Assembly: GCA_903825285.1 (NCBI GenBank)
Contig: CAIJZY010000031.1
Coordinates: 62,001-126,000 of the forward strand
DNA from: an uncultured Opitutia bacterium
Lineage (GTDB): Bacteria; Verrucomicrobiota; Verrucomicrobiia; Opitutales; Opitutaceae
DNA length: 64,000 bases
Direction of reading: 5' to 3'
Shown in pieces: positions 11,005 through 50,004 of this stretch (position 1 is its first letter; each line of letters opens with the position of its first letter). The notes beneath the pieces are model-generated. The model did not search any database. It was not told the origin of the DNA and saw nothing but the letters and a program-made list of their open reading frames with translations. Both the position numbers and the translations under genes were made by a program.

Positions 11005-11023
11005 CGGCGCGCGGCGCGCGTCC

Positions 11024-32976: not shown

Positions 32977-33016
32977 TTTCCCTCGAATTTCGAATTTTCG
33001 CCTTCGAGTTTTCCCA
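32977..33016. repeat. Heptamer array after the PEP carboxykinase stop codon
   Basis: Six 7-base units of the word TCGAATT/TTCGCCT fill the space up to the pckG stop codon (33018-33020). No complementary partner arm is visible. The same word in the same orientation abuts two other minus-strand stop codons, at 48094-48130 and 49967-50004. Confidence 0.7.
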
Positions 33017-33017
33017 G

Positions 33018-34844
33018 CTACATCCGGCAGATCAGCAGCTCGCGCTCGAACAGCAGCTCCTTCGGCAGGTGGGCGTGCAGGTCGATGAACAGCTCCTCGT
33101 GCCCGAGCACCTCGGCGCGCCAGGCGGCGCGGTCGAACGCCTGCAGCTCGTCGAATTTCTCGCGGGGGAAGTCCATGCCCTCCCACTCGAGGTCCTCGTA
33201 GCGCGGCATCCAGCCGATCGGCGTCTCCTTCGCGCGGCCGCCGCCGCGGGCGCGGTCGACGACCCACTTGAGCACGCGCATGTTGTCCGAGAAGCCGGGC
33301 CACATGAACTTCCCGTCCTTGTCCTTCCGGAACCAGTTCACGTGGAAGATGCGCGGGGTTTCCGAAAGGCTGCGCTGCATGTTGATCCAGTGGCGGAAAT
33401 AGTCGCCCATGTGGTAGCCGCAGAACGGCAGCATGGCGAACGGGTCGCGGCGGACCTTGCCGACCGCGCCCGCGGCGGCCGCGGTCATCTCGGAGCCCAT
33501 CGTGGCGCCGACGTAGACGCCGCTCGACCAGTTGAACGCCTGGTAGATCAGGGGCATGGTCGTGGCGCGCCGCCCGCCGAAGATGAAGGCGCTGATCGGC
33601 ACGCCCTCGGGATTCTCCCAGTCGGGGTCGATGGTCGGGCACTGCGACGCCGGCGCGGTGAAGCGCGAGTTCGGGTGCGCGGCCTTGGCGCCGGTCTGCA
33701 GCGCCATCTCGGGCGTCCAGCGCTTGCCCTGCCAGTCGAGGCACTCGGCCGGCGCGTCGCCGGTCATGCCCTCCCACCACACGCCGCCGTCGGGCGTGAG
33801 CGCCACGTTGGTGAAGATCGTGTTCCGCGACAGCGCCGCCATGGCGTTCGGGTTCGTGGAGTGGCTGGTGCCGGGCGCGACGCCGAAGAAACCCGCCTCG
33901 GGGTTGATCGCGCGCAGCCGGCCGTCGGGGCCGGGCTTGATCCACGCGATGTCGTCGCCGACCGTCCAGACCTTCCAGCCCTTCCGCGCGAAGGCCTTCG
34001 GCGGGATGAGCATGGCGAAGTTGGTCTTGCCGCAGGCGCTCGGGAAGGCCGCGGCCACGTAGGTCTTCTCGCCGTGGGGGTTCTCGACGCCGAGGATGAG
34101 CATGTGCTCGGCCATCCAGCCCTCGTCGCGCGCCATCGCGCTCGCGATGCGCAGCGCGAAGCACTTCTTGCCCAGCAGCGCGTTGCCGCCGTAGCCGGAG
34201 CCAAAGCTCCAGATCTCGCGCGTCTCCGGGAAGTGCACGATGTACTTCTCCTTGTTGCACGGCCAGGACACGTCCTTCTGCCCGGGCGCCAGGGGCAGGC
34301 CCACGGAATGCATGCAGGGCACCACCCGGCGGAAATCCTCGTCAATCAGGTCGAAGACCTTCTGGCCGATGCGGGCCATGATGCGCATGTTGACGACCAC
34401 GTAGGGCGAGTCGGTCAGCTCGACGCCGATCTGGGACATGGGGGATCCGATCGGCCCCATGCTGAACGCGAGCACGTACATCGTCCGCCCCTGCATGCAG
34501 CCGCTGAAGAGCCCGCGGAGGGTCTTCTTCATCTCGTAGGGATTGACCCAGTTGTTGGTCGGACCGGCGGAGTCCTTGGACTGGCTGCAGATGAAGGTGC
34601 GGTCCTCGACCCGGGCCACGTCGCTGGCGTCCGAGCGCGCATAATAGCAGCCGGGCCACTTGTGCTGGTTGAGTTTGACGAAGGTGCCGCTGGCGACCAA
34701 CTGCCCGCAGAGGTGGTCATACTCCTCCTGCGAGCCGTCCACCCAGTGCAGGGCGGCCGGCTGGCAGAGGGCGACCATCTTCTCGACCCAGCGCAGGAGG
34801 TGGGGATTCCGGCTCAGGGGCTTGGTGGAAGCGTGTTTTTCCAT
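33018..34844 (-). CDS. pckG: Phosphoenolpyruvate carboxykinase (GTP)
   Basis: It turns oxaloacetate and GTP into PEP, starting gluconeogenesis. The 608-aa protein has the GTP-type P-loop with the hyper-reactive cysteine C271 ([10 protein letters not shown]), the metal site GDDIAW, the [15 protein letters not shown] block and FGGRRATT. Length matches the GTP family and not the ATP family. The start giving MEKHASTK is preferred to one 15 codons upstream. It diverges from the YCII gene. Placed after proline catabolism (PutA), it fits growth on amino acids, an inference from proximity. Confidence 0.95.
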
Positions 34845-34974
34845 GCGCGGAAGCTGCCCGCGACCGTGCGGTGAGTAAACGGGAATCAAGGTCAGCGACC
34901 TGCCAATGAAGCCGGTCTGTCCCCCTCATAAGATGCGACTCGCCCGCCCGCCCGCCGCGCGCCAGTGTGCCCGC

Positions 34975-35412
34975 ATGATGCCCCGCCCGCTGCTTACCCT
35001 CCTGCTGGCCCTCGGCCTCGGCGCCCCGGCGGCGCTCGCCGCGGAACCCAAGGCTCCCGCCACCCCGGCCGCCGCCCCGTCCTCGGATCTCACGACCTAC
35101 TATTTCGGCCTCATCGTGAAGGGACCCAACTACGCCGCCTACGGCAAGGAGGACCGCGCCAAGCTCCAGGCGCTGCACCTCGCAAACATCGAGCGCCTCG
35201 CAAAGCTGGGCAAGCTGCTCGTCGCGGGTCCGTTCGAGGACAATGGCGAGTGGCGCGGCCTCTTCATCTTCAAGTGCGGCTCGCTCGCCGAGGCGCAGGC
35301 GCTCGCCGCCAGCGACCCGGAGGTGCAGACCGGACGGCTGCGGGTCGAGCTTCACCCTTGGATGACCACCAAGGGCTCGATTCACGACCCGGACTTCACG
35401 CCGGCGAAATAA
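34975..35412 (+). CDS. Secreted YCII-related protein
   Basis: From the first of two adjacent ATG codons the protein is 145 aa. A signal peptide (residues 1-23, ALAAE) is followed by a ferredoxin-like YCII domain: YYFGLIVKGPNY near 40, then HLANIERLAKLGKLLVAGPF and SDPEVQTGRLRVELHPW. Soluble YCII proteins are suspected small-molecule binders or lyases; secreted members lack an assigned role. The longer open frame upstream has no signal-like start. A 55-aa membrane gene follows eight bases later. Confidence 0.78.
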   Translation: MMPRPLLTLLLALGLGAPAALAAEPKAPATPAAAPSSDLTTYYFGLIVKGPNYAAYGKEDRAKLQALHLANIERLAKLGKLLVAGPFEDNGEWRGLFIFKCGSLAEAQALAASDPEVQTGRLRVELHPWMTTKGSIHDPDFTPAK

Positions 35413-35420
35413 CCCGTCCC

Positions 35421-35588
35421 ATGGAAAAGCTCTGCATCCTCGTCGGCACCACGCTGGGCGGCTACGCCGGCTGGGCGCTGCCCGAACTCTGCGGGCTGGG
35501 CTTCGGCTGGTGCTTCGCCATCAGCAGCGTCGGCAGCATCGTCGGCGTCTGGGCCGGCTGGAAGCTCGCGCGCAAGCTCGCCGAGTAA
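35421..35588 (+). CDS. Small membrane protein, 55 aa
   Basis: An ATG eight bases after the YCII gene opens a 55-codon frame rich in Gly, Leu and Trp. It has two likely membrane segments (about residues 5-20 and 26-47) joined by a short PELCG turn, and a basic tail (ARKLAE). Coding is supported by third-position GC bias and by close spacing to the upstream gene. The function is unknown. Confidence 0.6.
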   Translation: MEKLCILVGTTLGGYAGWALPELCGLGFGWCFAISSVGSIVGVWAGWKLARKLAE

Positions 35589-35603
35589 GCGGGGCGCCGG
35601 GTC

Positions 35604-38600
35604 TCAGTACTTGCGGGTCAGCTCCACCGACCACGACCGGCCGCGCGCCAGGACATTGTAGACGCCGGGATCGTAGCCGCGCGCGTCGCTCGACAGCGGC
35701 GGCTGCAGGTTGAACACGTTGACCACGCCCAGCCGGATCGACGTGTCGCGGAGGTAGCGGTTGGCCGACGCGAGCCGGTACGTGAGGTAGGTGTTGTACG
35801 TCAGGGTGTCGTGCACCACGTAGCGGTAGGTCCACGCCCCGCCGGTGTAGACCGCGGAAATGTAGCGGGGCGAACCGAGCGACTGATAAATGCTCTGCGT
35901 GGTGCTCGTGTTCCCATCCTGGTAGCTGCCGATGTAGTACGCCGCCAGACCGGCGCACCAGCGCTCGCGCTGCCAGCTGAGCGTGGTGGTGCCGCGCCAG
36001 ATCGCGGCGCCGCCCGCCGTGAAGCTGTTCTGGTTCCGGAGCACGGTCTTCGGCTTGCCGGGCGCGTCGTACGAGTAGAAGTCGATGAGGTAGGTCCACG
36101 CGGAATCGAACGAGAACCGGCCCAGCGTCCCGGGCGCGAAGCGCCAGTTCAGGTCGAGGTCCACGCCGTTCACGAACTGCTGCGCCTTGTTGAAGTACGT
36201 GAGCCGGATGTAGTCGATCGCGCCCACCACCGCGCGCTGCTGGTCCAGCGGCTTGCCGGCGTTGTAGGCGGCAAAATAATCGCGGTCCGCCTGGGTCACC
36301 GGCAGCCGCACGACCGCCGGGTCGCCGTGGTAGCCCGCCGTGCCCGAGCCGAGGTCCACCTGCGCGACCGGCACGCCGGCCGCCAGCTGCGCCTGCGTCG
36401 CGGCCACCAGCGCATCGCGGTCGCTGTTCGACGCGTCCGAAGCGGTCGGCCCGCTGATGACGTTCTTCTGGCGGATTTCCCAGTAATCCACCGACAGCGA
36501 CAGGCCGTGAACCTTCGGCACGTCCACCACCACGCCGGCGGTGAATCCAGCCGAGGACTCGGGCTTCAGGGTGAGATTGCCGGAGCTGAGGCTGCGACGG
36601 TTCGTCGAGCCGTCCGTGGGCAGGCCGGTCACGATGCTGCGGTACGCATCCGTGGTGTTGGTCGCCGTGCGGACGAGCGAGCCGGTGAAAAGCTCGGCCA
36701 GGTTCGGGGCGTGATAGCCCTGGTTGTACGAGGTCCGCACCATCACGCCCGGCGCCGGCCGCCAGTTGAGGCCGTACTTCGGCTTCGTCGTGCCGCCGAA
36801 GTCGCTGTAATGCTCGTGCCGCACCGCGGCCGTGAACTCGAGCGACTCCCGCAGCGGCCCGCGATTGCCGGGACCCACCAGCGGCAGCACGGTCTCGGCA
36901 TAGACCGCCGAGACGAAGCGGTTGGCGTGCGTGTCGGAGTTGGGCGAGAACCCGAGAAAGTCGTTGGTGGTCGGGTCGAGCCCGGAGCCGGCGGGATTCA
37001 ACCCGGCGTACGGCGGCCGGTAGTCGTCGTAGCCCTCGTAGCGGTACTCGCCGCCCACCGCGCCCGTGACCTGATTGCCGGCCCAGAGCGGGGCCACGTC
37101 ACCCGTGAGATGAAAATCACCGCTGCCGAGCTGGGTGATGCCGTTGCGCACAAAGGTCTGTCGGAATCCGGACGTCACGCTGTTCGGACTCGTCGCGGGG
37201 CCGGTGACCGCCAGCGTCCCGCCCTGCACCGCGAAGGCGTAGCCAAACGGGTTGTAGGCCTTGGCCGGGTCCGTCTGGTTGAGCGCCTGCTGCAGCAGGC
37301 TCTTCCGGTCGGTGCCGGCCTCCGCGTCGACCACCCGCGCCTTCGAGTAGAGCAGCGCCGCCTCCCAGTTCCACGAGCCCTCGAGCCGGCCGCGCAGTCC
37401 CGCCACGCCGCGGTAGACGTTGTCGGTGATGGTGGCAGTGCGCGCGGGCAGATCGGCGAGGCGCTTGTTGGTGATGACGATCGCCGAGGGCGTGCCGGTG
37501 AGCCGCGGCGTGCCGTCGGCGTTCGCTGTGCCGGTCGGGCTCCAGTAGCGCGAGCCGAACGGGTTGTAGGGATTGTCCACCGGCACGATGAGGTTGCCGT
37601 CGGTCGAGGCCGTGATGCCGTCGGGCTCGCGCGTCGTGATCGAGTGCGAACGGTACAGGGCGAGGTCGGTAAAGAAGGTGAGCCGGTTGTTGAGGTCGTA
37701 CTCGAGGCTGCTGTACCAGTTCACGCGCTTCGACTCGGGCTGGAGGACGCGGTAGGCGTTGTTGTTCCAGTAGTAGTCGCGCTCGACGCCGGTGCGGCTC
37801 GGGGTCGTGGTCTTGAAGCCCACGGGGCCGGCCGTGGTCGGCACCAGATAGAACAGCCCGGACGACGCCACCAGCGTCGCCGGCACGCCGGCGGACCGCG
37901 CCGCGGTGAATGTGCCGTCGGGGTTCACCACGCCGAGCGTGTAGCTGCCGTACGCGCTGGTGGAGGAGCGCGTGAAGAACGTCGTGCTCTTCGTCACGTC
38001 GCTCCACGGCGCCGGCGCCCGGCTGGTGAGGTCGCTGTCCGCGGAAAAGGCCCGGTCGCGGGCGTAGATCGCCTCGCGACTGTAGAGGTCGAGCGTCGTG
38101 AGAAACCGGCCGCGGCCGCCGGCCAGCGCCTGGCCGTGGGTCAGCGTCACCCGCGACTCCCCGCCGTCGCCCGCCTGCGTGCGGCCGTAGCGGAGCGCGA
38201 GCTCGGTGCCCCGGAAATCCGGCCGCGTCACGTAGTTCACCACGCCCGCCACGGCGTCGGCGCCATAGACCGGAGAGGCCCCGTCGCGCAGCACCTCGAC
38301 GCGGTCGAGGCCGCGGTTGGGCAGCTGGTTCACGTTGACGGAGAGCGACGGCACGCTGCCCTCGACCGTGCTGATCGGGTGCGGCGCGAGGCGGCGGCCG
38401 TTGAGCAGGATCAGGGTGTCGCCGGACGGCAGTCCGCGGAGCGAGATCGCCGCGTCGTCGCCGCGCGCCTGCGCCCCCAGCGTCGCCGTCTCGTTGAGCG
38501 GCAGGCCCGTCACCATCGGCAGCGCCGTCAGCAGGTCGGAGGGCTGGCCCGCGTCGCGGAGGTCCAGCTGGTCGCGACCAAGGATCGTGACCGGCAGCAC

Positions 38601-38744
38601 CTTTTCCTGATCCGTGCGCCGGAGGTTGGTGCCCGTGACCGTGACCGCCTCGAGCCGGACCACCGGGTCGGCCGGCGGCGTCTGCGCGCGGGCCGCGGTC
38701 AGCAGCGCGGCAAACACGGCAAAACGGCGGACGGGGCTTTTCAT
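35604..38744 (-). CDS. TonB-dependent receptor, large
   Basis: A 1046-aa outer-membrane receptor with a signal peptide (1-20), an immediate TonB-box-like segment (VTVTGTNLRR, about 33-43), a plug domain to about 190 (LSLRGLPSGDTLILLNGRR-type core, VEVLRDGASPVYGADAVAGVVNY) and a 22-strand barrel to the terminal RKY. It lacks the N-terminal carboxypeptidase-like domain of the receptor at 20.2 kb. The TGTN/GADAVAGV form is that of receptors for vitamins, siderophores or oligosaccharides; the ligand cannot be read. It is a lone gene facing a cation exporter. Confidence 0.88.
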   Translation of the reverse strand: MKSPVRRFAVFAALLTAARAQTPPADPVVRLEAVTVTGTNLRRTDQEKVLPVTILGRDQLDLRDAGQPSDLLTALPMVTGLPLNETATLGAQARGDDAAISLRGLPSGDTLILLNGRRLAPHPISTVEGSVPSLSVNVNQLPNRGLDRVEVLRDGASPVYGADAVAGVVNYVTRPDFRGTELALRYGRTQAGDGGESRVTLTHGQALAGGRGRFLTTLDLYSREAIYARDRAFSADSDLTSRAPAPWSDVTKSTTFFTRSSTSAYGSYTLGVVNPDGTFTAARSAGVPATLVASSGLFYLVPTTAGPVGFKTTTPSRTGVERDYYWNNNAYRVLQPESKRVNWYSSLEYDLNNRLTFFTDLALYRSHSITTREPDGITASTDGNLIVPVDNPYNPFGSRYWSPTGTANADGTPRLTGTPSAIVITNKRLADLPARTATITDNVYRGVAGLRGRLEGSWNWEAALLYSKARVVDAEAGTDRKSLLQQALNQTDPAKAYNPFGYAFAVQGGTLAVTGPATSPNSVTSGFRQTFVRNGITQLGSGDFHLTGDVAPLWAGNQVTGAVGGEYRYEGYDDYRPPYAGLNPAGSGLDPTTNDFLGFSPNSDTHANRFVSAVYAETVLPLVGPGNRGPLRESLEFTAAVRHEHYSDFGGTTKPKYGLNWRPAPGVMVRTSYNQGYHAPNLAELFTGSLVRTATNTTDAYRSIVTGLPTDGSTNRRSLSSGNLTLKPESSAGFTAGVVVDVPKVHGLSLSVDYWEIRQKNVISGPTASDASNSDRDALVAATQAQLAAGVPVAQVDLGSGTAGYHGDPAVVRLPVTQADRDYFAAYNAGKPLDQQRAVVGAIDYIRLTYFNKAQQFVNGVDLDLNWRFAPGTLGRFSFDSAWTYLIDFYSYDAPGKPKTVLRNQNSFTAGGAAIWRGTTTLSWQRERWCAGLAAYYIGSYQDGNTSTTQSIYQSLGSPRYISAVYTGGAWTYRYVVHDTLTYNTYLTYRLASANRYLRDTSIRLGVVNVFNLQPPLSSDARGYDPGVYNVLARGRSWSVELTRKY

Positions 38745-38802
38745 GGCAGCATTGGCGATGGCGGGGGGCCGGAGGCCGCGCCAGCCAAATCCCTGTCACA
38801 TG

Positions 38803-39711
38803 CTATTTCATCGGCTCGATGTGCACGGTGACGTCGCTGATCGCATGCACCGTGGAGCCGAGCAGCGCGTCCTTCACCGCGTGGGCGATGTCGTGTCCCG
38901 CCCGCACGGACAGGTTGCCGTCCACCCGCACCTGGATGTCCACGAGGTAGCTGAGCCCGCTTTTGCGCACCCGGACCTTGTCCAGGGCCTGCACGCCCGG
39001 CACCGCCAGCGCCAGGATGCGGACCTCGTGCTCGAAGTTGGCGGGCGCCGCCGCATCCATCACGTCGCCGATCGCGCGGCGGAACATGCTGAAGCCGTTG
39101 ACCGCGATGATCACGCACGCGAAGAGCGCCGCCCAGTCGTCGGCGGTTTCCCAGCCGGGCCCGCCCCAGAGCGCGATGCTGATCCCGACAAACGCCGCGC
39201 CGGAGGTCAGCGCATCCGACCAGTGGTGCAGCGCCTCGATGTTCAGCGCCGTGCTCCCGACCTCGGCGCCGGCCCGGCCCATCCGGCGGGAAAAGGCGAC
39301 CTTTACGACGATGACGGCGGCGAGCAGCACGAGCGTCCACCACTCCGGGCTCTGGTGCGGGGTCATGATCTCGCGCACGGCGTGCACCGCCAGCCAGCCG
39401 GCCATGAGGAAGACAAAGACCGCCACCGACAGGCCCGCGAGCGGCTCGGCCTTGCCGTGTCCGTAGGGGTGATCGGCGTCGGGCGGCCGCGCCGCCACCC
39501 GGAAGCCCGCCCACACCAGCGCGGAGGACAGGATGTCGAGGATCGACTCGGCCGCGTCCGCGATCAGGGCGTAGGTGTGGCCGAAGATCCCGCCGGCCAG
39601 CTTCACCACCGCCAGCAGCGTGTTCAGCCCGATGCCGCGCAGCACCAGCTGGGCGCTGTCGTTCGCGCGCCGCTGCGTGGCGGCATGTTGGCGGGCGAGC
39701 TCCGTGGGCAT
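38803..39711 (-). CDS. Cation diffusion facilitator (CDF) family metal exporter
   Basis: The 302-aa protein has six membrane helices and the two CDF metal sites: ADAAESILD in helix 2 (about residue 50) and HHWSDAL (H-x-x-x-D) in helix 5 (about 160). HPYGHGKAEPLAGL lies in the loop after helix 2. The C-terminal cytoplasmic domain (about 215-302, DIQVRVDGNLSVRAGHDIAHAVK) is the usual dimerising fold. It exports divalent cations such as zinc or manganese by proton exchange. The ATG giving MPTELARQ is chosen over a frame extension. Confidence 0.92.
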   Translation of the reverse strand: MPTELARQHAATQRRANDSAQLVLRGIGLNTLLAVVKLAGGIFGHTYALIADAAESILDILSSALVWAGFRVAARPPDADHPYGHGKAEPLAGLSVAVFVFLMAGWLAVHAVREIMTPHQSPEWWTLVLLAAVIVVKVAFSRRMGRAGAEVGSTALNIEALHHWSDALTSGAAFVGISIALWGGPGWETADDWAALFACVIIAVNGFSMFRRAIGDVMDAAAPANFEHEVRILALAVPGVQALDKVRVRKSGLSYLVDIQVRVDGNLSVRAGHDIAHAVKDALLGSTVHAISDVTVHIEPMK

Positions 39712-39797
39712 GGGGGACAACGCTACGGACGCGGCGCCGGGCGGCCAGCCTGCAATTGACCGCCCCCCGCCCGCCCGCCATGCTGCCACCGCAAGCC

Positions 39798-40253
39798 ATG
39801 GCTTCGTCCAAAACCACCCTCGCCACCGACCCCGTGCGCCAGTTCTCCGTGTTCGCGGAAAACCGGGTCGGCCGGCTCTACGACCTCACGACCCTGTTCA
39901 AGGACCACCAGGTCCACATCATGGCCATCACGGTGCTCGACACGACCGACAGCGCCGTCATCCGCCTGATCGTCGACGACCGCGAGAAGGCCCGCGAGCT
40001 CATGGTGAAAAACGATTTTCCCTTCACCGAGTGCGACGTGCTGGCCGTGGAGATGCTGGACGAGCGCCCGCTGCGCGATGTGCTGGCCGCGCTGCTCGAG
40101 GCGGAGATCAACGTCCACTACGTCTACAGCTTCATCAAGCGCCCCGAGGGCAAGTCCGCGCTCGCGCTCAACGTGGAGGACGCCGACGTCGCCGCCCAGG
40201 CGCTGAACGCCCGCGGCTTCAAGGTGCTCACGCAGCGGGACATTTCCCGCTGA
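39798..40253 (+). CDS. Tandem ACT-domain protein
   Basis: The 151-aa protein consists of two ACT folds, about residues 12-75 (FSVFAENRVGRLYDLTTLFKDHQV holds the first core) and 80-150. ACT domains bind amino acids or similar small ligands and usually control an enzyme, but none is fused here. The start could also be an ATG six codons upstream. It diverges from the CDF gene and ends nine bases from the convergent DUF3299 gene. A stand-alone sensor role is inferred. Confidence 0.82.
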   Translation: MASSKTTLATDPVRQFSVFAENRVGRLYDLTTLFKDHQVHIMAITVLDTTDSAVIRLIVDDREKARELMVKNDFPFTECDVLAVEMLDERPLRDVLAALLEAEINVHYVYSFIKRPEGKSALALNVEDADVAAQALNARGFKVLTQRDISR

Positions 40254-40262
40254 CGCGCGGGC

Positions 40263-40876: not shown

Positions 40877-43800
40877 ATGCGCTCCACCCTGCCCCGCCTG
40901 CTCGCCGCCGCGCTCGCGCTGGGCGCCAGCCTGACGACCGCCGCCGCCCGCGACCCGTGGTTTCCCGACGGCCCCATCCAGCCGCAGATCCCGCACGACG
41001 TCCTCCTGCCGCAGAAGGTGCGCACGCCGCAGTTCCCGCTCAAGACCGCCCGCACGCTCCACACCGACGCCGAGATCGCCCAGGCCCGCGCCAATGTCGC
41101 GCGCTACCCCGCCGCCCGCGCCCTTGCCGACCAGATCCTCAAGGAGGCTAAGTACTGGACGGCGTGGAGCGACCAGGACCTGCACGACCTTGTGACCACC
41201 GCCGAGGTCCCGCGGGCCGTCGAGCTCTGCAACGCCGGCTGCCCCATCCACGGGCGGAAAATCTACGAGGGCATCAACGGCTCCTCCTACCCGTGGATCG
41301 TCGATCCCCGCCAGCCTTTCAAGGTCAAGTGCCCGATCGGCGGCGAGGTCTACCCCGACAACGACTACGGCGCGTATTACCGCAGCGGATTCAAGGACAA
41401 GAGCCTCCTGAAGGGGAAGATCGTGGACGATGGCTGGGGCTGGGTCGGCCCCGACGGCCAGCGCTACTGGTTCGTCGCGCATGCCAACCACATGGTCTGG
41501 CAGGGCCCGGGCCTCGACAGCCGCTGCCTCATCACCGGCACGCAGGTCCTGAGCCGCGCCTACCTGCTCACCGGCGATCCCCTCTACGCCCACAAGGCCG
41601 CCATCCTCCTCCACCGCATCGCCGAGGTCTACCCGACGATGAACCACGAGCAGCAGTCGCGCTTCGGCCAGCTCATGGCCGCCCAGGGCACCCGTTACCC
41701 GGGCAAGATCGTCAACCTCATCTGGGAGTCCTACCAGGTCGCGCCCTGCCTGTCCGAGGCCTACGACAACATCTGGGAGACCCTCGATGCCGACACCGTG
41801 CTGCAGCAGTTCTACCACCAGACCGGCGCACAGGTCCGCGCGTGCATCGAGGCCAACTACCTCGAGGACGCCATCGACGCCTACTTCGACGACAAGATGC
41901 GCGGCAACTACGGCACGCACCAGCGCGCCCTGCTCCAGCTCGCCGTCGTCCGCCAGCACGGCGACAACGCGCGCTATGTCGACGAGGTGCTCCACCGTCC
42001 CGAGGGCCACCTGCTGCGCATCGGCTTCGACTACGCGCTCTACAACCTCGTCTACCGCGATGGCGCCCCGCACGAGTCGCCCGACTACAACTTCGTCTGG
42101 ACCCGTATCCTTGCGGCGTCCGCCGAGCTGCTGAAGAAGCTCGGCTACGACCTCGCGACCATGCCGCGGCTGCGGCGGATGTTCGACACGCCGCTCGACT
42201 TCATCACGGTCGGCCAGCTCTCCCCGCCGCTCGGCGACAGCAGCACGCGCTACGCCCCGCTCATCGGGCGCGACTCCCTCACCTACCAGCGCGGCCTGCA
42301 GCTCTACGGCGACCCGCGCTACGCCGGGTTCCTGGCCGGCATCGGCGCCACCGGCGACCAGACCTTCGGCAGCTTCGAGGCGCTGTTTGCGCCGGCCCTC
42401 CCGGCCCAGACCCCGCCCGGCGCCGGCCGCGTCGTGCCGCCGCAACCGTCCCGCATCCTCAGCGGCTACGGCTACGCCCTGCTCAACAATCCCGCCGACA
42501 CGCGCTCGCTCGGGCTCTTCTACGGGCTGCATGTCGCCCACTACCACCACGACCGCCTGCAGTTCGACCTCTTCGCCCACGGCCAGGACCTGACGCCCGA
42601 CCTGGGCTATCCCGACGGCGCCAATGAGTTCAACGCCGGCATCTTCACCTGGTCCAAGACCACCATCTCGCACAACACCGTCACGGTCGACGCCCACCGC
42701 CAGCCCGCCAATCCCGCCGGCCACCTCCGGCTCTTTGCCGACGGGCCGTTCGCCCGCGCCCTCACCGCCGACGGCGCCGGCACCTACCCGCAGGCCACCA
42801 CCTATCGCCGCACGCTCGTGATGGTGGACGTGCCCGGCGCCGCCGACCGCGGCTACGTGGTGGACTTCTTCGACGTCGTGGGCGGCCGCCAGCACGACTA
42901 CAGCCTGCACGGCCCGACCGGAAAGTTCACCCTGCTCGGCGGCGCGTGGTCGCCGCCCGCACCCGGCACGCTGGCCGGGCCCGATGTCGCCGTCGGCGCG
43001 CTCTACGACGACCCCGAGCGGGGCGCGAAGGATTTCAAAGGGAGCTACCTCAACTACGCCGGCTCCGGCTTCCAGCACCTGGTGAACGTCCGCCGCCTGC
43101 AGTCCGGCGCGGATGACGTCGTCGCCGAGTACGTCCACGACAAGGATCCCAACGCCCGCATCCGGCTGCGCGTGCTGCCGCAGGCTGGCCAGGAGCTGAT
43201 CTCCACCGAGGCCCGCGTCTCGCCGATGAAGTACCCGGAGCTGGTGCACTTCCTCATCGCACGCCGGGTCGCCGCGCCGGGCGCCCCCGAGCTGGCCAGC
43301 GCGTTTGCCGCCGTGCTGGAGCCGTTTGCGACCGAGCCTTTCATCACCTCGGCCCACCGCCTCGCCCTCGCCAACGGCTCCGTGGTCGTCGTCGCCCGCG
43401 CCGGCGGGGAGCGCGACCTCGTGTTCCACCACCAGGGCAACGACGCCGCGCTGTTCGCCGGCGATGACACGCCCCCGGTCGTCACCGACGCCGAGGTGGC
43501 CGTGATCTCCCTCGATGCCCAGCACCGGCCCGTCCGCGCGTTCTTCGCCGGTGGCAGTTTCCTCCAAATCGGCGCCCGCCGGCTCACCGCCTCCGGGCTG
43601 GCCGGCTCCGTGACCGCCGTGGACGTCGCCGCGGGCAAACTCCATGTGCGCCTCGCCCCGGGCACGCCCGCGCCCAATCTCGCGCAGCTCCCCGGCCGCG
43701 TGCTGCAGCTCTCGAATCCCCTGCGCGACACGGTCCAGACGATCACGCGCGCCGAGCAAGCCGGCGACGAGCTGGTGCTCACCGTGAAGGACGACCTGCG

Positions 43801-44080
43801 GGTCGGCCTGGTCCACGTCTCCGCCGTGGAGGGCGCCACGCTCACGACCAAGACCGCGCTGCACCTTGCGCCGCTTTACCGCGGCGTCACGCTCTGCACA
43901 CGCGCCGATCAGCCGCTGGCCACCGTCATTGAGGCCAAGGCCGGCCAGCTCACGCTCGCAGCCCCTCCCACCGGCAAGATTGCCGCCGGCGAGGACGTCT
44001 GGCTCGTGGACGCCGCCGTCGGGGAAACCGTCCGCCTGCCCGCCATCCAGAGCTGGATCAACCCGGACCTTCAGCCCTAA
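40877..44080 (+). CDS. Heparinase II/III-like polysaccharide lyase
   Basis: A 1067-aa secreted protein with a signal peptide (1-24). An alpha/alpha-toroid (about 60-480) ends in the region with HVAHYHHDRLQFDLFAHG, and the heparinase II/III beta-sandwich follows (about 490-800, with ISHNTVTVDAHRQ). Such lyases cut acidic polysaccharides by beta-elimination using His, Tyr and Asn. The sheets after 800 form a further beta domain. No sulfatase is nearby, so alginate- or uronan-like substrates are as likely as glycosaminoglycans. Start MRSTLPRL is chosen over an upstream frame extension. Confidence 0.83.
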   Translation: MRSTLPRLLAAALALGASLTTAAARDPWFPDGPIQPQIPHDVLLPQKVRTPQFPLKTARTLHTDAEIAQARANVARYPAARALADQILKEAKYWTAWSDQDLHDLVTTAEVPRAVELCNAGCPIHGRKIYEGINGSSYPWIVDPRQPFKVKCPIGGEVYPDNDYGAYYRSGFKDKSLLKGKIVDDGWGWVGPDGQRYWFVAHANHMVWQGPGLDSRCLITGTQVLSRAYLLTGDPLYAHKAAILLHRIAEVYPTMNHEQQSRFGQLMAAQGTRYPGKIVNLIWESYQVAPCLSEAYDNIWETLDADTVLQQFYHQTGAQVRACIEANYLEDAIDAYFDDKMRGNYGTHQRALLQLAVVRQHGDNARYVDEVLHRPEGHLLRIGFDYALYNLVYRDGAPHESPDYNFVWTRILAASAELLKKLGYDLATMPRLRRMFDTPLDFITVGQLSPPLGDSSTRYAPLIGRDSLTYQRGLQLYGDPRYAGFLAGIGATGDQTFGSFEALFAPALPAQTPPGAGRVVPPQPSRILSGYGYALLNNPADTRSLGLFYGLHVAHYHHDRLQFDLFAHGQDLTPDLGYPDGANEFNAGIFTWSKTTISHNTVTVDAHRQPANPAGHLRLFADGPFARALTADGAGTYPQATTYRRTLVMVDVPGAADRGYVVDFFDVVGGRQHDYSLHGPTGKFTLLGGAWSPPAPGTLAGPDVAVGALYDDPERGAKDFKGSYLNYAGSGFQHLVNVRRLQSGADDVVAEYVHDKDPNARIRLRVLPQAGQELISTEARVSPMKYPELVHFLIARRVAAPGAPELASAFAAVLEPFATEPFITSAHRLALANGSVVVVARAGGERDLVFHHQGNDAALFAGDDTPPVVTDAEVAVISLDAQHRPVRAFFAGGSFLQIGARRLTASGLAGSVTAVDVAAGKLHVRLAPGTPAPNLAQLPGRVLQLSNPLRDTVQTITRAEQAGDELVLTVKDDLRVGLVHVSAVEGATLTTKTALHLAPLYRGVTLCTRADQPLATVIEAKAGQLTLAAPPTGKIAAGEDVWLVDAAVGETVRLPAIQSWINPDLQP

Positions 44081-44091
44081 TCCTACAGCCC

Positions 44092-44125
44092 GGTGTAGGG
44101 CGGGGTCGCCGACCCCGCCGAGCGC
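44092..44125. repeat. REP-like GC-rich palindrome
   Basis: A perfect 9-bp stem (44099-44107 with 44111-44119) with a three-base GCC loop is preceded by TGTAG and followed by GAGCG. It sits 18 bases after the heparinase-like stop codon. There is no T-run, so it looks like a short dispersed palindrome more than a terminator. It is the only copy I found in the window. Confidence 0.5.
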
Positions 44126-44199
44126 GTCGCATGACATCGGGTCGGGACAGTTGCGGTGCGGTTCTTTCGGGGTACGATCCGGGCGTCGGCCACCCCGCC

Positions 44200-44415
44200 A
44201 TGAAAACCATCGCCAGCTTCAGCCAGCCCGTGGAAGCGCACATGCTGCGCTCGCGGCTCGAGGTGGAGGGCATCACCGCCTACCTGCGCGACGAGAACAT
44301 GATCGCGCTCGACTGGCTCTATTCCAACGCGCTCGGGGGCGTGAAGGTGGACGTGGCCGACGAGGACTACGAGCGGGCCCTGGACGTTATGACGTCCCTG
44401 GGCACATCCCCATAG
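44200..44415 (+). CDS. DUF2007-domain protein
   Basis: A 71-aa protein matching the DUF2007 (putative signal-transducing) fold: KTIASFSQPVEAHMLRSRLE at the N-terminus, then GITAYLRDENM and GGVKVDVADEDYERALDV. Members are short, related to regulatory PII-like folds, and unassigned in function. The ATG giving MKTIASF is chosen over an upstream frame extension of 23 codons. It lies between the heparinase-like and six-hairpin genes on the same strand. Confidence 0.82.
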   Translation: MKTIASFSQPVEAHMLRSRLEVEGITAYLRDENMIALDWLYSNALGGVKVDVADEDYERALDVMTSLGTSP

Positions 44416-44479
44416 CCCAAATCCGACCCGCCCTCGTCATCGGATTGACGCGCCGCGTCCTCTTCGTCCCGCTAGCAGC

Positions 44480-47143
44480 ATGGCCCTGTCTCCCCGCGCG
44501 CTGCTGTGCTGGATCGGTTTCACGCTTGTCGGATTCGCCGGCCCGCTCCGGGCCGCGACCACCACCGTCGCCGTGGTCTGGGCCGCCGCGCCGTCGGGCG
44601 AAGTCCGCGTGGACCGCGGCCGACTGGTCGAACTGCGTGCCGGCCCCGGAGGCGAGGCGACCGGCCACACTTTCAAGTTTGCGCCGCAGACGCCGGGCCG
44701 GCTCGAACTCACGCTTGAGGCCAGCGCCGCTGGAAATGAGACCGGCACGCTCGTCACGTTCGCGGCCCCGGGGGCAACCTTCACTTTCCGGCCCGGCGAC
44801 GTGACCGCCACCTATCCCATCTACGTGCCCGCGCTCGGCGTCGCGGTCACCGCCGCCAGCGACGCCCGCGCCTACGCCGCGATCGCGGCGGACATCCGCC
44901 AGCGCGGCACGCGCACGAAGCTCCAGGCCATCGACGCCGCGCCCGAGGAGAACTTCGCCGCGGCCGCCGCGACCACGCGCGCCATGCGGCTCGAGACGTG
45001 GCTCGGCCTGAGCCGCGACGCCCGGATCTTCCGCGCGGACGACCGCCTGCAGTGGATCAAGCCCCGCTTCCACTGGAGCGAGTCGAAGCTGCCGGAAACC
45101 AACGGCAAGCCGATCGTCTATGAGTTCCAGTTCGGCCGCGGCTGGGGCGTGCGCGACGACGTCACACGCCGGCTCGAGGACGGCGTGCTGCCGATCCTCC
45201 ACGGCCATATCGGCGACGAGGACGTGCAGTACGAGGTCACAGCCTTCACCAGCCTCGAGCGCACCCCGCTCACCGCCGCCACGCTGCGCGGCACGCCGTA
45301 CCTGGTCGCCGACGCGTACGGCGCCGGCCACATGTTCACGGCGGCCCAGCAGGTCGAGGTCGGCAAGCAGCGCGAGGCCGAGGCCAACCGCGACGAGGAA
45401 ACCGTACTCTACGTCCGCGGCGTGGCCACGAACCACGGATCGGTGCCGCGCTTTGCGCTGTTCAAGACCATGACGCCCCAGCTCGTGAAGCGCGACGGTT
45501 GGCATGTCGACGGCGCGCACGGCTTCGGGGTCTTCCAGTCGGGCCGCGTGTTTGTCGTCACCAAGCTCAACGGCCAGCCCGCCGGCGAGGAGTGCTCCGT
45601 GCTGCTCCAGCCGGGGCAGAGCGCGGCCTTCGAGATGTTTGTGCCGCACAGCCCGGTCGCCGCCGGGCGCGCCGCGGCGCTGGCCGCGCAGTCGTTCGAC
45701 GCGCGGCTGGCGGAGGTGCGTTCGTTCTGGCAGCGGAAGCTCGACCGGGCCGCCCACTGGCGCCTGCCCGAGCCGCGGATCGACGAGATGGCGCGGGCCG
45801 GCCTGCTGCACCTCGACCTGATCACCTACGGCCTTGAGCCCGACGGCACGCTCATCCCCACCATCGGCGACTACACCGCGATCGGCTCCGAGAGCGCGCC
45901 GATCATCCAGTTCATGGACTCGATGGGCTGGCATGACGAGACGCGGCGCGCGATCGGGTTCTTCCTCGCGAAGCAGCATGACGACGGGTTCATGCAGAAC
46001 TTCAACGGCTACATGCTCGAGACCGGCGCCGTGCTGTGGACCATGGGCGAGCACTACCGCTACACGCGCGACGAGGCCTGGCTGCGCGAGGTGAAGCCCG
46101 CGCTGCTCAAGGCCTGCCGTTTCCTTCAGGCGTGGCGCGCGCGCAACCGGCGCGGGCCGGCCGACGACGGCTTCGGCCTGCTCGACGGCAAGACGGCGGA
46201 CCCCGATGATCCCTACCGCTCGTTCATGCTGAACGGCTACGCCTACCTCGGGCTCGCCCGCGCGGCGGAGATGCTTGCCGCCAGCGACCCGGCCGAGGCG
46301 CAGGTCTGGCGCGCCGAGGCCGAGGGCCTCAAGCACGACCTCCGCGCGGCGCTGATGCACGGCCTGGAGCAGTCCCCGGTCGTGCCCCTCGGCGACGGCA
46401 CCTGGGCGCCCGCCGCCGCGCCGTGGACCGGCTACCGCGGGCCCGTGATGCTCCACGCCGACGGCGGCGCGTGGTTCACGCACGGCACCATGACCGGCCG
46501 CGACTCGCTGCTCGGTCCACTCTACCTCGTCTTTCAGGAGGTGATTGATCCACAGGAGCCGCTCGCCGGCACGCTGCTCGCCACGCACAGCGAGCTGATG
46601 ACGCGGCAGAACGTCGCCTTCAGCCAGCCCTATTACAGCCGCCACCCCTGGCTGCACCTGCGCCGCGGCGAGGTGAAGCCTTTCCTCCAGGCCTGGTACG
46701 ACACCGTCGCGTCCATGGCCGACCGGGAGACATACACGTTCACCGAGCACTTCTTCGGCGCGAGCCCGCACAAGACGCACGAGGAGGCGTGGTTCCTGAT
46801 GGAGACGCGCTGGATGCTTTATCTCGAGGAGGGCCACACGCTCCGCCTGCTTGCGGGCGCGCCGCGCGCCTATCTCGCGGACGGAAAAACCGTGGCGGTG
46901 GAAAACGCCGCCAGCTACTTCGGCCCGCTGTCATTCCGCGTCGAGTCGCACGCCACCCAGGGCCTGATCCGCGCAACCGTCACCTGTGCCGGCGACCGCC
47001 ACCCCGACGTCGTCGAGTTCCGCGTGCCCCACCCTGACGGACTCCACGCAAAATCCGTCGAAGGCGGCGTCTACGATTCCACGACCGAAACAGTCCGGAT
47101 CGCCCCGTTCCGCGGCGCCGCCACGATCACGCTGAAGTACTGA
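44480..47143 (+). CDS. Secreted six-hairpin (alpha/alpha-6 barrel) glycosidase-like protein
   Basis: The 887-aa protein has a signal peptide (1-25). N-terminal beta domains reach about residue 420. A six-hairpin toroid spans about 430-790 (GDYTAIGSESAPIIQFMDSMGW, NFNGYMLETGAVLWTMGEHY, SFMLNGYAYLGLARAAEML) and a C-terminal beta domain follows. This plan is shared by GH78, GH95, GH63 and similar retaining or inverting hydrolases. I cannot assign a family; acidic residues in ETGAVLW and HTHEEAW-like stretches (near 770) are candidates. It could act on a deoxysugar such as rhamnose or fucose, given its neighbours. Confidence 0.65.
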   Translation: MALSPRALLCWIGFTLVGFAGPLRAATTTVAVVWAAAPSGEVRVDRGRLVELRAGPGGEATGHTFKFAPQTPGRLELTLEASAAGNETGTLVTFAAPGATFTFRPGDVTATYPIYVPALGVAVTAASDARAYAAIAADIRQRGTRTKLQAIDAAPEENFAAAAATTRAMRLETWLGLSRDARIFRADDRLQWIKPRFHWSESKLPETNGKPIVYEFQFGRGWGVRDDVTRRLEDGVLPILHGHIGDEDVQYEVTAFTSLERTPLTAATLRGTPYLVADAYGAGHMFTAAQQVEVGKQREAEANRDEETVLYVRGVATNHGSVPRFALFKTMTPQLVKRDGWHVDGAHGFGVFQSGRVFVVTKLNGQPAGEECSVLLQPGQSAAFEMFVPHSPVAAGRAAALAAQSFDARLAEVRSFWQRKLDRAAHWRLPEPRIDEMARAGLLHLDLITYGLEPDGTLIPTIGDYTAIGSESAPIIQFMDSMGWHDETRRAIGFFLAKQHDDGFMQNFNGYMLETGAVLWTMGEHYRYTRDEAWLREVKPALLKACRFLQAWRARNRRGPADDGFGLLDGKTADPDDPYRSFMLNGYAYLGLARAAEMLAASDPAEAQVWRAEAEGLKHDLRAALMHGLEQSPVVPLGDGTWAPAAAPWTGYRGPVMLHADGGAWFTHGTMTGRDSLLGPLYLVFQEVIDPQEPLAGTLLATHSELMTRQNVAFSQPYYSRHPWLHLRRGEVKPFLQAWYDTVASMADRETYTFTEHFFGASPHKTHEEAWFLMETRWMLYLEEGHTLRLLAGAPRAYLADGKTVAVENAASYFGPLSFRVESHATQGLIRATVTCAGDRHPDVVEFRVPHPDGLHAKSVEGGVYDSTTETVRIAPFRGAATITLKY

Positions 47144-47202
47144 CGCATCCGCGTTCCCCCGCGAAATCCGCGGAAACGGAACTCGGGTGAGCCGCCTGTG
47201 TT

Positions 47203-48054
47203 TCAGACCCGGTAGAACGACTCGGCGTTGCGCACGTAGAGCTGGTGCAGCTCGTCGGGCGACGCGCCCTTCAGCGCGGCGTCGAGCGTGTTCACCCAGC
47301 GCGGGTAGTCGGTCGCCTGCGTGGACACGGGCCAGTCGCCGCCGAAGATCACGCGACCGAAGCCGAAGCAGTCGACCACGTGGTCGATATACGGCTGCAG
47401 GTCGGCGGGCGTCCAATTCGCGCAGTCGGCCTCGGTGACAAGGCCCGACAGCTTGCACCAGACGTTCGGGAACTTCGCCAGCTCCCGCAGCTCCGCGCGC
47501 CACGGGTCGAGCAGCAAGGCCTTGATGTCGGGCTTGGCGATGTGGTCCATGATGAACTTCACGTTCGGGCACTGCTTCACGAGCTTCAGCGTGTTCGCGA
47601 GCTGCTTGTGGTTGATGCAGAGGTCAAAGCTCAGCCCGTGGCGCGGCAGCAGCTGCACGCCCCGCACAAAGCCGGGCTGCAGGCAGAACTCCTGGTCCGC
47701 CTCGAACTGGATGATGCGGCGGATGCCCTTGATCAGCGGGTTCGCCGCCAGCCGCGCGAGGTCCGCCTCGGCGGCGTCGCCCTTCTCCAGCGGCGCCCAC
47801 GGCACGATGCCGCGGATGCGCGGGTCGACGCGCGCCACCTCCGTCACCCAGTCCGCCTCCTCCTGGAACAGCGCGAAGTCCGCCTCGCACTGCAGGAACA
47901 CCATCTTCGCCACCTGCACGGGTCCGCAGGCCTGGCGGTATTCTTCAATCAGGTGGTCGCGGTTGAGCATCGGGACGTTCACGAGCCACGGGTAGCGCAG
48001 CCGCTTGAGGTCCCAGAGGTGGAGGTGGGTGTCGACGATGGGGAATGAGGGCAT
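47203..48054 (-). CDS. Amidohydrolase-family sugar lactonase (L-fucono/rhamnono-lactonase-like)
   Basis: The 283-aa TIM-barrel protein belongs to the amidohydrolase-2/COG3618 group. It has VDTHLHLWD at residues 7-15, IKGIRRIIQ near 118, MDHIAKPDI near 178 and FGGDWPVS near 245, the last carrying the catalytic aspartate. Members hydrolyse sugar lactones such as L-fuconolactone or L-rhamnonolactone. It ends a minus-strand series with two dehydrogenases and a hydroxyacid dehydrogenase, which supports an oxidative sugar pathway. The exact sugar is not readable. Confidence 0.78.
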   Translation of the reverse strand: MPSFPIVDTHLHLWDLKRLRYPWLVNVPMLNRDHLIEEYRQACGPVQVAKMVFLQCEADFALFQEEADWVTEVARVDPRIRGIVPWAPLEKGDAAEADLARLAANPLIKGIRRIIQFEADQEFCLQPGFVRGVQLLPRHGLSFDLCINHKQLANTLKLVKQCPNVKFIMDHIAKPDIKALLLDPWRAELRELAKFPNVWCKLSGLVTEADCANWTPADLQPYIDHVVDCFGFGRVIFGGDWPVSTQATDYPRWVNTLDAALKGASPDELHQLYVRNAESFYRV

Positions 48055-48093
48055 GGGGACGGGGGTTGGGGCTAGAGCACGAAGGCGGGAATT

Positions 48094-48130
48094 AGTCCTC
48101 GAATTTCGGATTTTTGCTCTTCGAATTCTA
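48094..48130. repeat. Heptamer array after the hydroxyacid dehydrogenase stop codon
   Basis: Five 7-base units of the TCGAATT/TTCGGAT type lie between the lactonase start and the stop codon at 48131-48133, directly touching the latter. Word and orientation match the arrays at 32977-33016 and 49967-50004. No facing arm is present. Confidence 0.7.
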
Positions 48131-49090
48131 CTAGCGGTTCACCTGGTTCTTGAGCGGTTCGCCGCGCAGGCCGCGGACGGTCTCCTCGGCGGCGAGCTGC
48201 TGCAGGCGGGGAATGCTGCTCTCGCTGTACCACGCGACGTGCGACGTGAGCAGCGCCGACGGGCAGGCGAACAGCGGGTGCTCCTTCTCGATGGGCTCCT
48301 TCTCGTAGACGTCGAGGCCGGCGCCGGCGATCGTGCCGGCCTGCAGCGCCGCGGCCAGCGCCACGGTGTCCACCAGCGGGCCGCGGGCCGTGTTCACAAT
48401 AATGGCATGCTTCTTCATCTGCGCCATGCGCGCGGCACTCACAAAGTGACGCGTCTCCGCCGACAGCGGCAGGTGCAGGGAAAGGATGTCCGCCCGGGTG
48501 AACAGCTGCTCGAGGTCCACCTTCTCCACCCCGACCGCCGCCATCGCCTCGGCGCCGACAAACGGGTCGTAGGTGATCCGCTGCCCGCCGAAGCCGCGCA
48601 TCATCTCGTGCGCCGCGCGGGCGATGCGGCCGAAACCCGCAGTGGCAAAGGTGGAGTCCCGCAGCGCGGGCATCGGCTGGTCGGGCGTGATCTTCCAGGT
48701 GCCCCCGCGCAGCCGGCGGTCGATCTGCGGCAGCTGGCGCCGCAGCGCGAGGGCCAGCGCCACCGCGTGCGAGGCCACCTCGTCCACACCGTAGTCCGGC
48801 ACGTTGCACACCGGGATGCCCCGGGCCTTGGCCGCCGCGAGGTCGACGTTGTCCACGCCGATGCCGTAGCGGATGATGACCTTGCAGCGCGTCAGCGCGG
48901 CGATCACCGCGGCGTTCACCGGCGCCCACTGGACCAGCAGCGCGTCCGCGTCACGAGTAGCGGCGATCACCGCCTCCGGCGTCTTGCACTGCGCGACCAC
49001 CAGCTCCGCGCCGGCGGCGGCCAGGACCGTCTCTTCGTGGCGAAGATTCGGGAAACCATGATCGGTGACAACTACGCGGTATGTGGACAT
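48131..49090 (-). CDS. D-isomer-specific 2-hydroxyacid dehydrogenase
   Basis: A 319-aa NAD-dependent dehydrogenase. The Rossmann motif is AGFGRIARA near residue 153 (the last glycine of GxGxxG replaced by alanine). The catalytic trio is visible: R in NTARGPLVD near 235, E in GLDVYEKEP near 264, and H in LLTSHVAW near 283. CtBP, phosphoglycerate and hydroxypyruvate reductases share this plan; the KVIIRYGIGVDNVD stretch is CtBP-like. It sits between the SDR and lactonase genes, so a sugar-acid substrate is likely. Confidence 0.85.
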   Translation of the reverse strand: MSTYRVVVTDHGFPNLRHEETVLAAAGAELVVAQCKTPEAVIAATRDADALLVQWAPVNAAVIAALTRCKVIIRYGIGVDNVDLAAAKARGIPVCNVPDYGVDEVASHAVALALALRRQLPQIDRRLRGGTWKITPDQPMPALRDSTFATAGFGRIARAAHEMMRGFGGQRITYDPFVGAEAMAAVGVEKVDLEQLFTRADILSLHLPLSAETRHFVSAARMAQMKKHAIIVNTARGPLVDTVALAAALQAGTIAGAGLDVYEKEPIEKEHPLFACPSALLTSHVAWYSESSIPRLQQLAAEETVRGLRGEPLKNQVNR

Positions 49091-49113
49091 GGGAAATTAG
49101 ACGTGAGTCCGGG

Positions 49114-49941
49114 TCACTTGGTGCCGGCGATCTTCGTGGTCTGGCCGAGGCCCTCGGGCCCGAGGCCGTTGTAGCCGCCGTCCACGGGCAGGTCCGTGCC
49201 GGTGATGAACGACGCGTCGTCGCTCAGGAGGAACAGCACCGGCCCGGCGATCTCCACCGGGTGGCCCATCCGCGCGAGCATGTGGTACTGGCCCCAGATC
49301 GGGTCGTACTTCGCGCGGTCGCCGCCGGCGGCCTTGTCCACCTCGCGGGTCCAGATCCAGCCGGGGCTGACGCTGTTGACGCGGATGCGGTGGGGCGCGA
49401 GGTCGAGCGCGGCGCAGCGCGTGAGCTGGGTCACGGCGCCCTTCGCGGTGTTGTAGGTCCACCGGTTCGGCTGCGCGACCCAGGCCGAGATGCTCGAGAC
49501 GTTCACGATCGCGCCGCCGCCCTGCCGCTTCATCCACTCCGCCACCAGCTGGGTCAGCTGCGCGAAGGCGAACGGCCCGACGTTGAACGACCGCTCGAAA
49601 TCCGCGCGCGTCGCGTCGAGCCCCTTGGCCAGGAAGGAAAAGGCGTTGTTCACCAGGTAATCGATCCGGCCGAGCTTGGTGCCCACCTCGGTCACGAGCG
49701 TCCGGCAGAAGGCCTCGTTCTCCAGGTCGCCCGCGACGATTAGCGGCGTGAAGCCCGCGGCGGCAAAATTCCGGCGGCCCTCCTCGGCGTCGGCCGGCAG
49801 GCCGCTCACGGCCACCGTCGCGCCCTCGCGCAGCAGCTCGAGCGCGATCGCGTGGCCGATGCCGTTGGTGCCGCCGGTCACGAGGGCGACCTTGCCCTTG
49901 AAGCGCTGCGGGATGGGGGTGCGGGTGGGTGAGGTGCTCAT
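49114..49941 (-). CDS. Short-chain dehydrogenase/reductase
   Basis: A 275-aa SDR with the cofactor loop TGGTNGIG near residues 22-29, NNAF near 105, the catalytic serine in NVSSISAW near 150 and the Y163/K167 pair in YNTAKG. The C-terminal PVDGGYNG is typical of classical SDRs acting on sugars or polyols, for instance L-fucose or 2-keto-3-deoxy-sugar-acid dehydrogenases. The open frame continues far upstream, but that part is out of phase with the dehydrogenase gene there. It is separated from the upstream Zn-dehydrogenase by a heptamer array. Confidence 0.88.
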   Translation of the reverse strand: MSTSPTRTPIPQRFKGKVALVTGGTNGIGHAIALELLREGATVAVSGLPADAEEGRRNFAAAGFTPLIVAGDLENEAFCRTLVTEVGTKLGRIDYLVNNAFSFLAKGLDATRADFERSFNVGPFAFAQLTQLVAEWMKRQGGGAIVNVSSISAWVAQPNRWTYNTAKGAVTQLTRCAALDLAPHRIRVNSVSPGWIWTREVDKAAGGDRAKYDPIWGQYHMLARMGHPVEIAGPVLFLLSDDASFITGTDLPVDGGYNGLGPEGLGQTTKIAGTK

Positions 49942-49966
49942 GGGGTGGTGAGTAGGCTCGCTGAAA

Positions 49967-50004
49967 CTATTTTCGAATTTCCGCCTTCGGGTTTTCTCCT
50001 CGGC
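49967..50004. repeat. Heptamer array after the Zn-dehydrogenase stop codon
   Basis: Units near TTTCGAA, CTTCGGG and TTTTCTC keep a 7-base phase up to the stop codon at 50007-50009. The word matches the arrays after pckG and after the hydroxyacid dehydrogenase, in the same orientation with respect to the gene. Confidence 0.65.

Follow-up and report, generated by a model that had tools for sequence, protein, structure and literature searches.

Two-armed heptad elements in the intergenic gaps of an Opitutaceae bacterium and its relatives

Small dispersed palindromic elements in transcribed intergenic gaps are familiar from enterobacteria, as REP/BIME, ERIC and similar repeats. Tandem repeats of about seven bases have been described in other bacteria. 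As passages of one study relate, Xanthomonas has arrays of the heptamer GGGAATC, mostly of four units, with 70 convergent (facing) pairs in one genome and 75 in another; about 90% of the arrays are intergenic, they lie closer to the gene upstream, at a mean of 28 nt, and few lie between divergent genes, and most repeats keep their flanking genes from one species to a second while varying in length and sequence (PMC4692102). Geobacter metallireducens carries three classes (1–3) of 3–5 tandem repeats of 7–9 nt, given in excerpts of the report as putative IHF/HU sites (PMC2700814), and the TAACTGA repeats of marine Beggiatoaceae are described, in part of their source, as 169 direct sets and one indirect set, mostly just upstream of start codons (PMC4679880). 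Here we describe facing arrays of heptads in the gaps between genes of an uncultured Opitutia bacterium of the family Opitutaceae (genome 3.74 Mb in 62 contigs) and of its relatives, starting from a stretch of 64,000 nt (the window; positions 62,001 to 126,000 of contig CAIJZY010000031.1, assembly GCA_903825285.1) in which heptad arrays adjoin the stop codons of three genes. We conclude that such an array, rather than marking the stop codon, forms one arm of a larger element. Among the results listed by literature searches there was no report of such elements in Verrucomicrobia or Opitutaceae.

Heptad arrays at three stop codons and across the genome

By Pfam, the three genes encode PEPCK (pckG, stop at 33018), a 2-hydroxyacid dehydrogenase (stop at 48131) and a zinc dehydrogenase (stop at 50007), the nearest named relatives of the PEPCK being those of Lacunisphaera and other Opitutaceae. 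The first-pass annotation, made from the letters of the window, had placed arrays of a TCGAATT-type word next to all three stops, and they are present as claimed. All three read in the same direction relative to their own gene and match, on the minus strand, a composite arm of 30 nt with the units CACGAAG GGCAAAA TTCGAAA TTCGAGG.

32979..33011, minus strand: array A, at the PEPCK stop; TCGAATT TCGAATT TTCGCCT TCGAGTT on the plus strand; composite match at 32979-33008 with 49.8 bits, by construction, as array A is a seed row of the motif
48095..48128, minus strand: array B, at the 2-hydroxyacid dehydrogenase stop; composite match at 48095-48124 with 20.0 bits
48075..48088, plus strand: probable remnant of the arm facing array B, GAGCACGAAGGCGG on the plus strand, recognized by eye against the composite arm
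49962..49991, minus strand: array C, at the zinc dehydrogenase stop; composite match with 28.0 bits; no facing arm seen

The distance to the stop codon, which had been thought equal, is 9, 6 and 15 nt for A, B and C, respectively. The further statement that the arrays lack a facing arm describes array C, but array A folds on itself (CTGGG..CTCGAA..TTCGAG..CCCAG) within an insert of about 60 nt that pairs with itself as a hairpin, and array B has the apparent outer remnant listed above. Arrays A–C would be single, partly decayed arms of what we call the CGAAATT family.

The word TCGAATTTCGAATT occurs 14 times in the whole genome and its reversed control not at all. For wider counts we used 873 kb of this genome (G000), consisting of the window, a further 60 kb from the same contig and other contigs or parts of contigs selected for carrying TCGAATTTCGAATT, in which our own script called 727 genes; counts of TCGAATTTCGAATT are enriched by this choice, in which other words played no part. 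The composite motif has 37 matches of at least 12 bits in the sample, seed rows matching by construction and three places being counted on both strands, compared with 0 in a Markov control and 4 in a reversed control, and 11 non-seed matches reach at least 26 bits, of which one falls within a called gene. Four unlike heptads in a constant order thus recur at unrelated junctions, which supports, for this word, the proposal that a whole array was copied. From the CACGAAG end, a stop codon is no more than 25 nt away in 19 matches and a start codon in 4, so that the preference for stops holds. A single orientation relative to the gene is not confirmed: the nearest gene end on the CACGAAG side is a stop in 22 of the 37 matches but a start in 12 (3 lie inside genes), so that the occurrence in both orientations that the first-pass annotation named as refuting applies in part. 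A fixed address at stops is likewise only half of the rule, as the distances vary and two-armed elements have a second, facing array ahead of the following start codon or, at convergent junctions, of the opposing stop.

Heptad arrays of several words occur across the sample. With gaps of 30–600 nt counted, lag-7 arrays (score of at least 10) were found at 57/288 co-directional, 12/68 convergent and 6/95 divergent junctions, compared with 0.5, 0.3 and 0.4 after shuffling, the detector giving some false calls in GC-rich gaps, such as those of G001. A lag of 9 is the second period (21 co-directional, 9 convergent and 7 divergent junctions), other lags yield 0 to 9, and the best period of a co-directional junction is 7 in 51 cases and 9 in 17. 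Facing pairs are the usual form, with 32 paired-arm rows, two of which come from one junction. Our own grouping, a loose assignment at 62% of letters, gives seven word families, GTTGAAA, GTAGCGA, CGAACGC, CAGAGGT, CAAGTGA, CGAAATT and TCCGATC, and leaves 9 arrays outside all of them. None of the seven consensus units has three G in a row, and in the GTAGCGA unit columns 5 and 7 vary while the others are at 0.91 or above. A second class of facing arrays, with a period of 9–10 and words such as CACGGAAAC and CGCGAATCA, takes some of the junctions of heptad elements (G000:C31a 8021, locus L031, and in G010, G004 and G006); a literature search with six longer-period words found unrelated work only.

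In sampled congeners, arrays stand at 5/43 (G010), 5/34 (G005), 6/45 (G004), 2/12 (G011), 1/8 (G007), 0/4 (G001) and 0/3 (G003) co-directional junctions. Co-directional and convergent junctions together gave 5/24 (G015), 3/21 (G016), 3/21 (G013), 2/21 (G017) and 2/41 (G014) in other genera of the family, and none in four more genomes (G018 0/30, G024 0/25, G012 0/5, G023 0/2). Outside the family but within the order, two of nine genomes had one array each.

The GTAG family and the reuse of orthologous junctions

Of 120 family genomes from 49 genera, 65 genomes in 32 genera carry three tandem units of GTAGYGV (reversed control, 24 matches in 13 genomes), and 38 genomes carry four units of GTTGARN (reversed control, 18 matches in 6 genomes). 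In a phylum sample of 288 genomes, GTAGYGV was found in 15 of 25 family members and in 7 of 263 genomes outside the family, the latter with 26 matches compared with 89 in 9 genomes for the reversed control; the outside matches shown, from six of the seven genomes, are homogeneous repeats.

GTAG junctions lie between co-directional genes in 37 of 38 cases. The 37, with gaps of 20–400 nt, come from G000 (13) and from 15 other genomes (24); the exception, L225, is a lone array in a longer convergent gap outside that run. All 26 two-armed GTAG elements point inward, and they are anchored at both ends, with a median distance of 5 nt (range −4 to 24) from the stop and of 9 nt (3 to 16) from the start; at some junctions the called stop is a TAG within the first units. 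Twenty loci of other genomes were taken from the match list, mostly as two close matches, so that their pairing is partly by choice, whereas their co-direction and gaps are not. In relatives without the element the gap is 10–25 nt in some and longer in others.

Elements occur where the junctions of close relatives have none, and in the cases aligned they adjoin the stop codon; at some array-less orthologous junctions the remaining gap can be aligned beyond the insert. At pckG, 30 loci of relatives were fetched and 25 read, that of G000 included, and the array is present in G000 and absent from the 24 relatives, several of which keep the downstream gap with a conserved TGGAACGA stretch. Of 80 named pckG loci fetched, many of them belonging to other phyla, 75 could be read, and these held one lag-7 segment, which is GC-rich and unrelated. 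G000 has a second PEPCK-like copy (C7:48945-50567) with 83% identity, in which the matched stretch is interrupted by one TGA.

Several word families coexist in one genome, and other species use the same junctions, mostly with other words. Behind the gene at C14:120886, which we take to be prfB-like from its frameshift-like stretch, arrays exceed the threshold in 6 of 11 genomes and are lacking in 5; the words are of the CAGAGGT (two species), GAGTGAC, GAACGTC, GAAATTC and AATGACT kinds. An element of G005 that resembles the one in G009 seems to enclose a second element. Just upstream of the frameshift-like stretch of a prfB-like gene, at the C14:119550 junction, a TCCGGTA-type array is present in G000 and G003 and absent in G001. 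Across 80 junctions present in at least three species (365 cells; gaps up to 400 nt, as in the GTAG-placement and fold analyses), arrays co-occur at the same junction in 87 pairs, compared with 30.1 ± 5.8 after shuffling and with 41.9 ± 6.9 (maximum 72 in 2000 shuffles) when shuffled within classes of gap length. Lags 6, 8 and 9 showed no such excess, but with only 7, 7 and 11 arrays. Of the 87 pairs, 55 agree in at most 4 of 7 letters and 20 in 6 or 7, while between different junctions of different species 75% agree in at most 4 letters and 5% in 6 or 7; therefore most words differ, and some are inherited.

Spread, possible role and rival explanations

Whole ordered arrays or whole elements are common to unrelated loci, as seen in the CGAAATT composite and in the AACGCCG element. 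The latter has 63 matches in its own genome, many being one place on both strands, and 21 copies were aligned; the 20 readable ones share a core near GGATCGTCCCGCGGC..GCCGCGCGCTGGAATCCAC, and L191, wrongly cut at a contig end, does not enter the counts. When folded, four full two-armed elements form long imperfect stems (z of −4.5, −6.5, −6.4 and −4.8 against mononucleotide shuffles, the strand not being chosen by gene), and array A has a z of −3.2.

The explanation that we narrowly favor as a whole is that these are dispersed two-armed heptad elements, multiplied by copying, which form a hairpin between cistrons that masks the second start. Such an element would be about 60–150 bp long and non-coding, normally with two facing arrays of 3–5 heptads round a spacer in an intergenic gap of the Opitutaceae, and would spread by copying to new junctions. 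Insertions that break a promoter would be removed by selection, since few elements lie at divergent junctions. Where an element is retained, it may fold in the mRNA into a long imperfect hairpin that separates two cistrons and acts there, a role favored because GTAG elements are anchored to both stop and start and are near absent from convergent gaps. For GTAG, the most likely effect would be that the start region of the second gene stays covered by the hairpin until the near arm is unfolded by a ribosome that reaches the end of the first gene, so that GTAG elements may couple the translation of the two genes.

Several observations weigh against this explanation. Arrays B and C fold no better than shuffled sequences (z of −0.8 and 0.3), several of the sampled genomes of the family have few arrays or none, and the AACGCCG family lies at divergent junctions too (5 of 20, with 10 co-directional and 5 convergent). 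The spacers of the GTAG and TTGAAAG elements gave no within-family match at the BLAST threshold used, so that copying of whole elements is not supported for these two families. Unit order does not match between the arms of one element (17.6 compared with 17.2 for unit-shuffled arms, n=35), by which we reject the arms as exact in-register copies of each other. Between loci of G000 it scores 20.3 for GTAG, 18.0 for TTGAAAG and 17.5 for AACGCCG, compared with 20.0, 17.4 and 16.6 when shuffled, and between loci of other genomes 0.76 compared with 0.67; a shared unit order is rejected as well, these scores hardly exceeding shuffled ones. With unit order mismatched between arms and hardly matched between loci, fine pairing of the hairpin is not what is kept. 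Finally, no transposase or other mover for the heptad elements was found, and the three Y1 transposase loci of the genome have no heptad array within 1.5 kb on either side.

A more far-reaching version strikes us as improbable, namely that the Opitutaceae possess a rewritable intercistronic device, in which facing arrays reaching from stop to start couple the translation of the second gene to that of the first, selection acts on nothing but period, polarity and address, and the spelling is exchangeable between species within a family-wide vocabulary. As 7 is prime to 3, words like GTAG would then offer a stop in every frame within three units. As a general reason for the period of 7, stops in all frames were rejected, the CGAAATT, AACGCCG and ATCGAAA consensus words having no stop on either strand.

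The arrays might instead be independent intergenic heptamers made by a polymerase that slips preferentially by seven bases, with inverted copies arising by template switching. Many bacteria have an excess of heptamer simple repeats, for which, in passages of the Xanthomonas study, a polymerase-footprint explanation is quoted from earlier work (PMC4692102), and the dominance of period 7 over period 9 at co-directional junctions points the same way. Slippage would leave identical neighbors, and in this respect the families differ. In G000, CAAGTGA leans to identical neighbors (2/27 compared with 0.7 expected) and is the sole family above expectation; GTAG shows no depletion (8/52 compared with 8.7), and TTGAAAG (8/51 compared with 11.8), AACGCCG (2/86 compared with 5.9) and, weakly, CAGAGGT (0/24 compared with 1.5) are depleted. 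In other genomes, however, neighboring GTAG units are rarely identical (12/148 compared with 20.9 ± 2.8 expected, in 44 arrays of 16 genomes), which disfavors plain slippage for this family and upholds, for GTAG, the earlier claim that slippage did not make the arrays; as the sole source of those arrays slippage is rejected. Nor does it account well for one GTAG word recurring at unrelated loci and through most genera of the family, the homogeneous matches outside the family being the pattern that it would give. We therefore regard slippage as unlikely. Arrays of binding sites, with each heptad recognized by a protein that binds DNA or RNA, the DNA looped by facing arms and different proteins for different word families, seem to us doubtful to a like degree. 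The nearly fixed columns beside variable ones in GTAGCGA, the constant arm polarity (26/26) and the IHF/HU proposal for the paired Geobacter sites in excerpts of that report (PMC2700814) would suit this reading, but many unlike words share one period, and at reused junctions, where the word mostly changes, the protein would have to change site by site.

That the elements are unusual transcription terminators at gene ends is less probable still. Their rarity at divergent junctions (6/95), their frequency behind stops and the strong hairpins of the four full elements are what terminators would show, but convergent junctions are not enriched (12/68 compared with 57/288 co-directional), GTAG elements stand between co-directional genes in gaps that measure only 10–25 nt in some element-less relatives, and terminator-like sites (stem plus T run) on the minus strand are absent at arrays A–C and number 6 in 19 kb, compared with 7.9 expected. 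Both the slippage and the terminator readings fit worse than a role in the transcript between cistrons. We give very little credence to the view that these are repeats of the REP type and that a Y1 (RAYT) transposase moves them. The elements are small, dispersed, palindromic and intergenic and the genome has three Y1 genes, but a RAYT mover is not supported, given the lack of heptad arrays at the Y1 loci, and the gene at L146 (G000:C28) is flanked by different, GC-rich palindromes of the GGCGGGGTCGGCGACCCCGCC type, a separate REP-like family.

Other elements of the window and comparison with known systems

Six further junctions of the window have arrays of other words.

3191..3289, minus strand: AACGCCG-family two-armed element (arms 3254-3289 and 3191-3230) between two minus-strand genes; the G001 gap is without these arms, and a GC-rich stretch there exceeds the lag-7 threshold
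4315..4399, minus strand: CAAGTGA two-armed element, beginning at the stop codon; what remains of the gap can be matched by eye with the shorter G001 gap, which retains only that remainder
10874..11020, minus strand: two arrays at one junction, each with a word of its own, TTACGAT type at 10874-10900 and CTCCGAT type at 10973-11020; the G001 gap is 11 nt
16217..16300, plus strand: TTGAAAG two-armed element, the upstream gene ending within the first arm; G001 and G004 are without the array
54798..54895, no strand assigned: CAGAGGT two-armed element (arms 54798-54825 and 54865-54895) between convergent genes; the G011 gap is 19 nt
56765..56865, plus strand: degenerate two-armed element of TCGGAGC / CTCCGAT type

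Beside the CAGAGGT element, a compact hairpin at 54751-54795 with the word CGAAATTCGACTGACG / CGTCAGTCGAATTTCG holds the stop of the gene at 52445-54769. A scan of the window with Rfam 15 gave 0 matches above the gathering score. In the 873-kb sample, the last 10 nt before called starts are 63–64% pyrimidine on the gene strand, at co-directional and divergent junctions alike.

With these elements, isolated cases, one heptamer in Xanthomonas and a few classes in Geobacter, become a comparative system across one bacterial family. As orthologous gaps share period and plan while their words are often exchanged, what is kept (period, polarity, place) can be separated from what is not (sequence), which allows one to ask why heptamers dominate long bacterial repeats and whether such pairs couple neighboring genes.

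Compared with REP/BIME and ERIC, the arms described here are tandem heptads of many words, and no mover was found. The Beggiatoaceae repeats, as far as the excerpts of their description go, are likewise intergenic heptamer arrays near start codons with a possible translational role, but they consist of one word in direct repeats (PMC4679880). The paired sites of G. metallireducens share opposite-strand pairs at variable distance (classes 1 and 2) and several word classes per genome, whereas they are called putative IHF/HU sites, and the relevant passages give no stop or start rule and no comparison of orthologous junctions (PMC2700814). The likeness to Xanthomonas, judged from passages of that study, extends to facing heptamer pairs within one gap, nearness to the gene upstream and scarcity in divergent gaps, and the finding there that most repeats share their flanking genes across two species foreshadows the reuse of junctions in the Opitutaceae. 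There, however, one G-rich word is read as a quadruplex, while here there are at least seven words per genome by our own grouping, words are exchanged at reused junctions, and GTAG elements are anchored to both stop and start. The closest known systems are thus the facing heptamer arrays of Xanthomonas together with the paired sites of G. metallireducens, and we read the Opitutaceae system as a new, multi-word variant of these.

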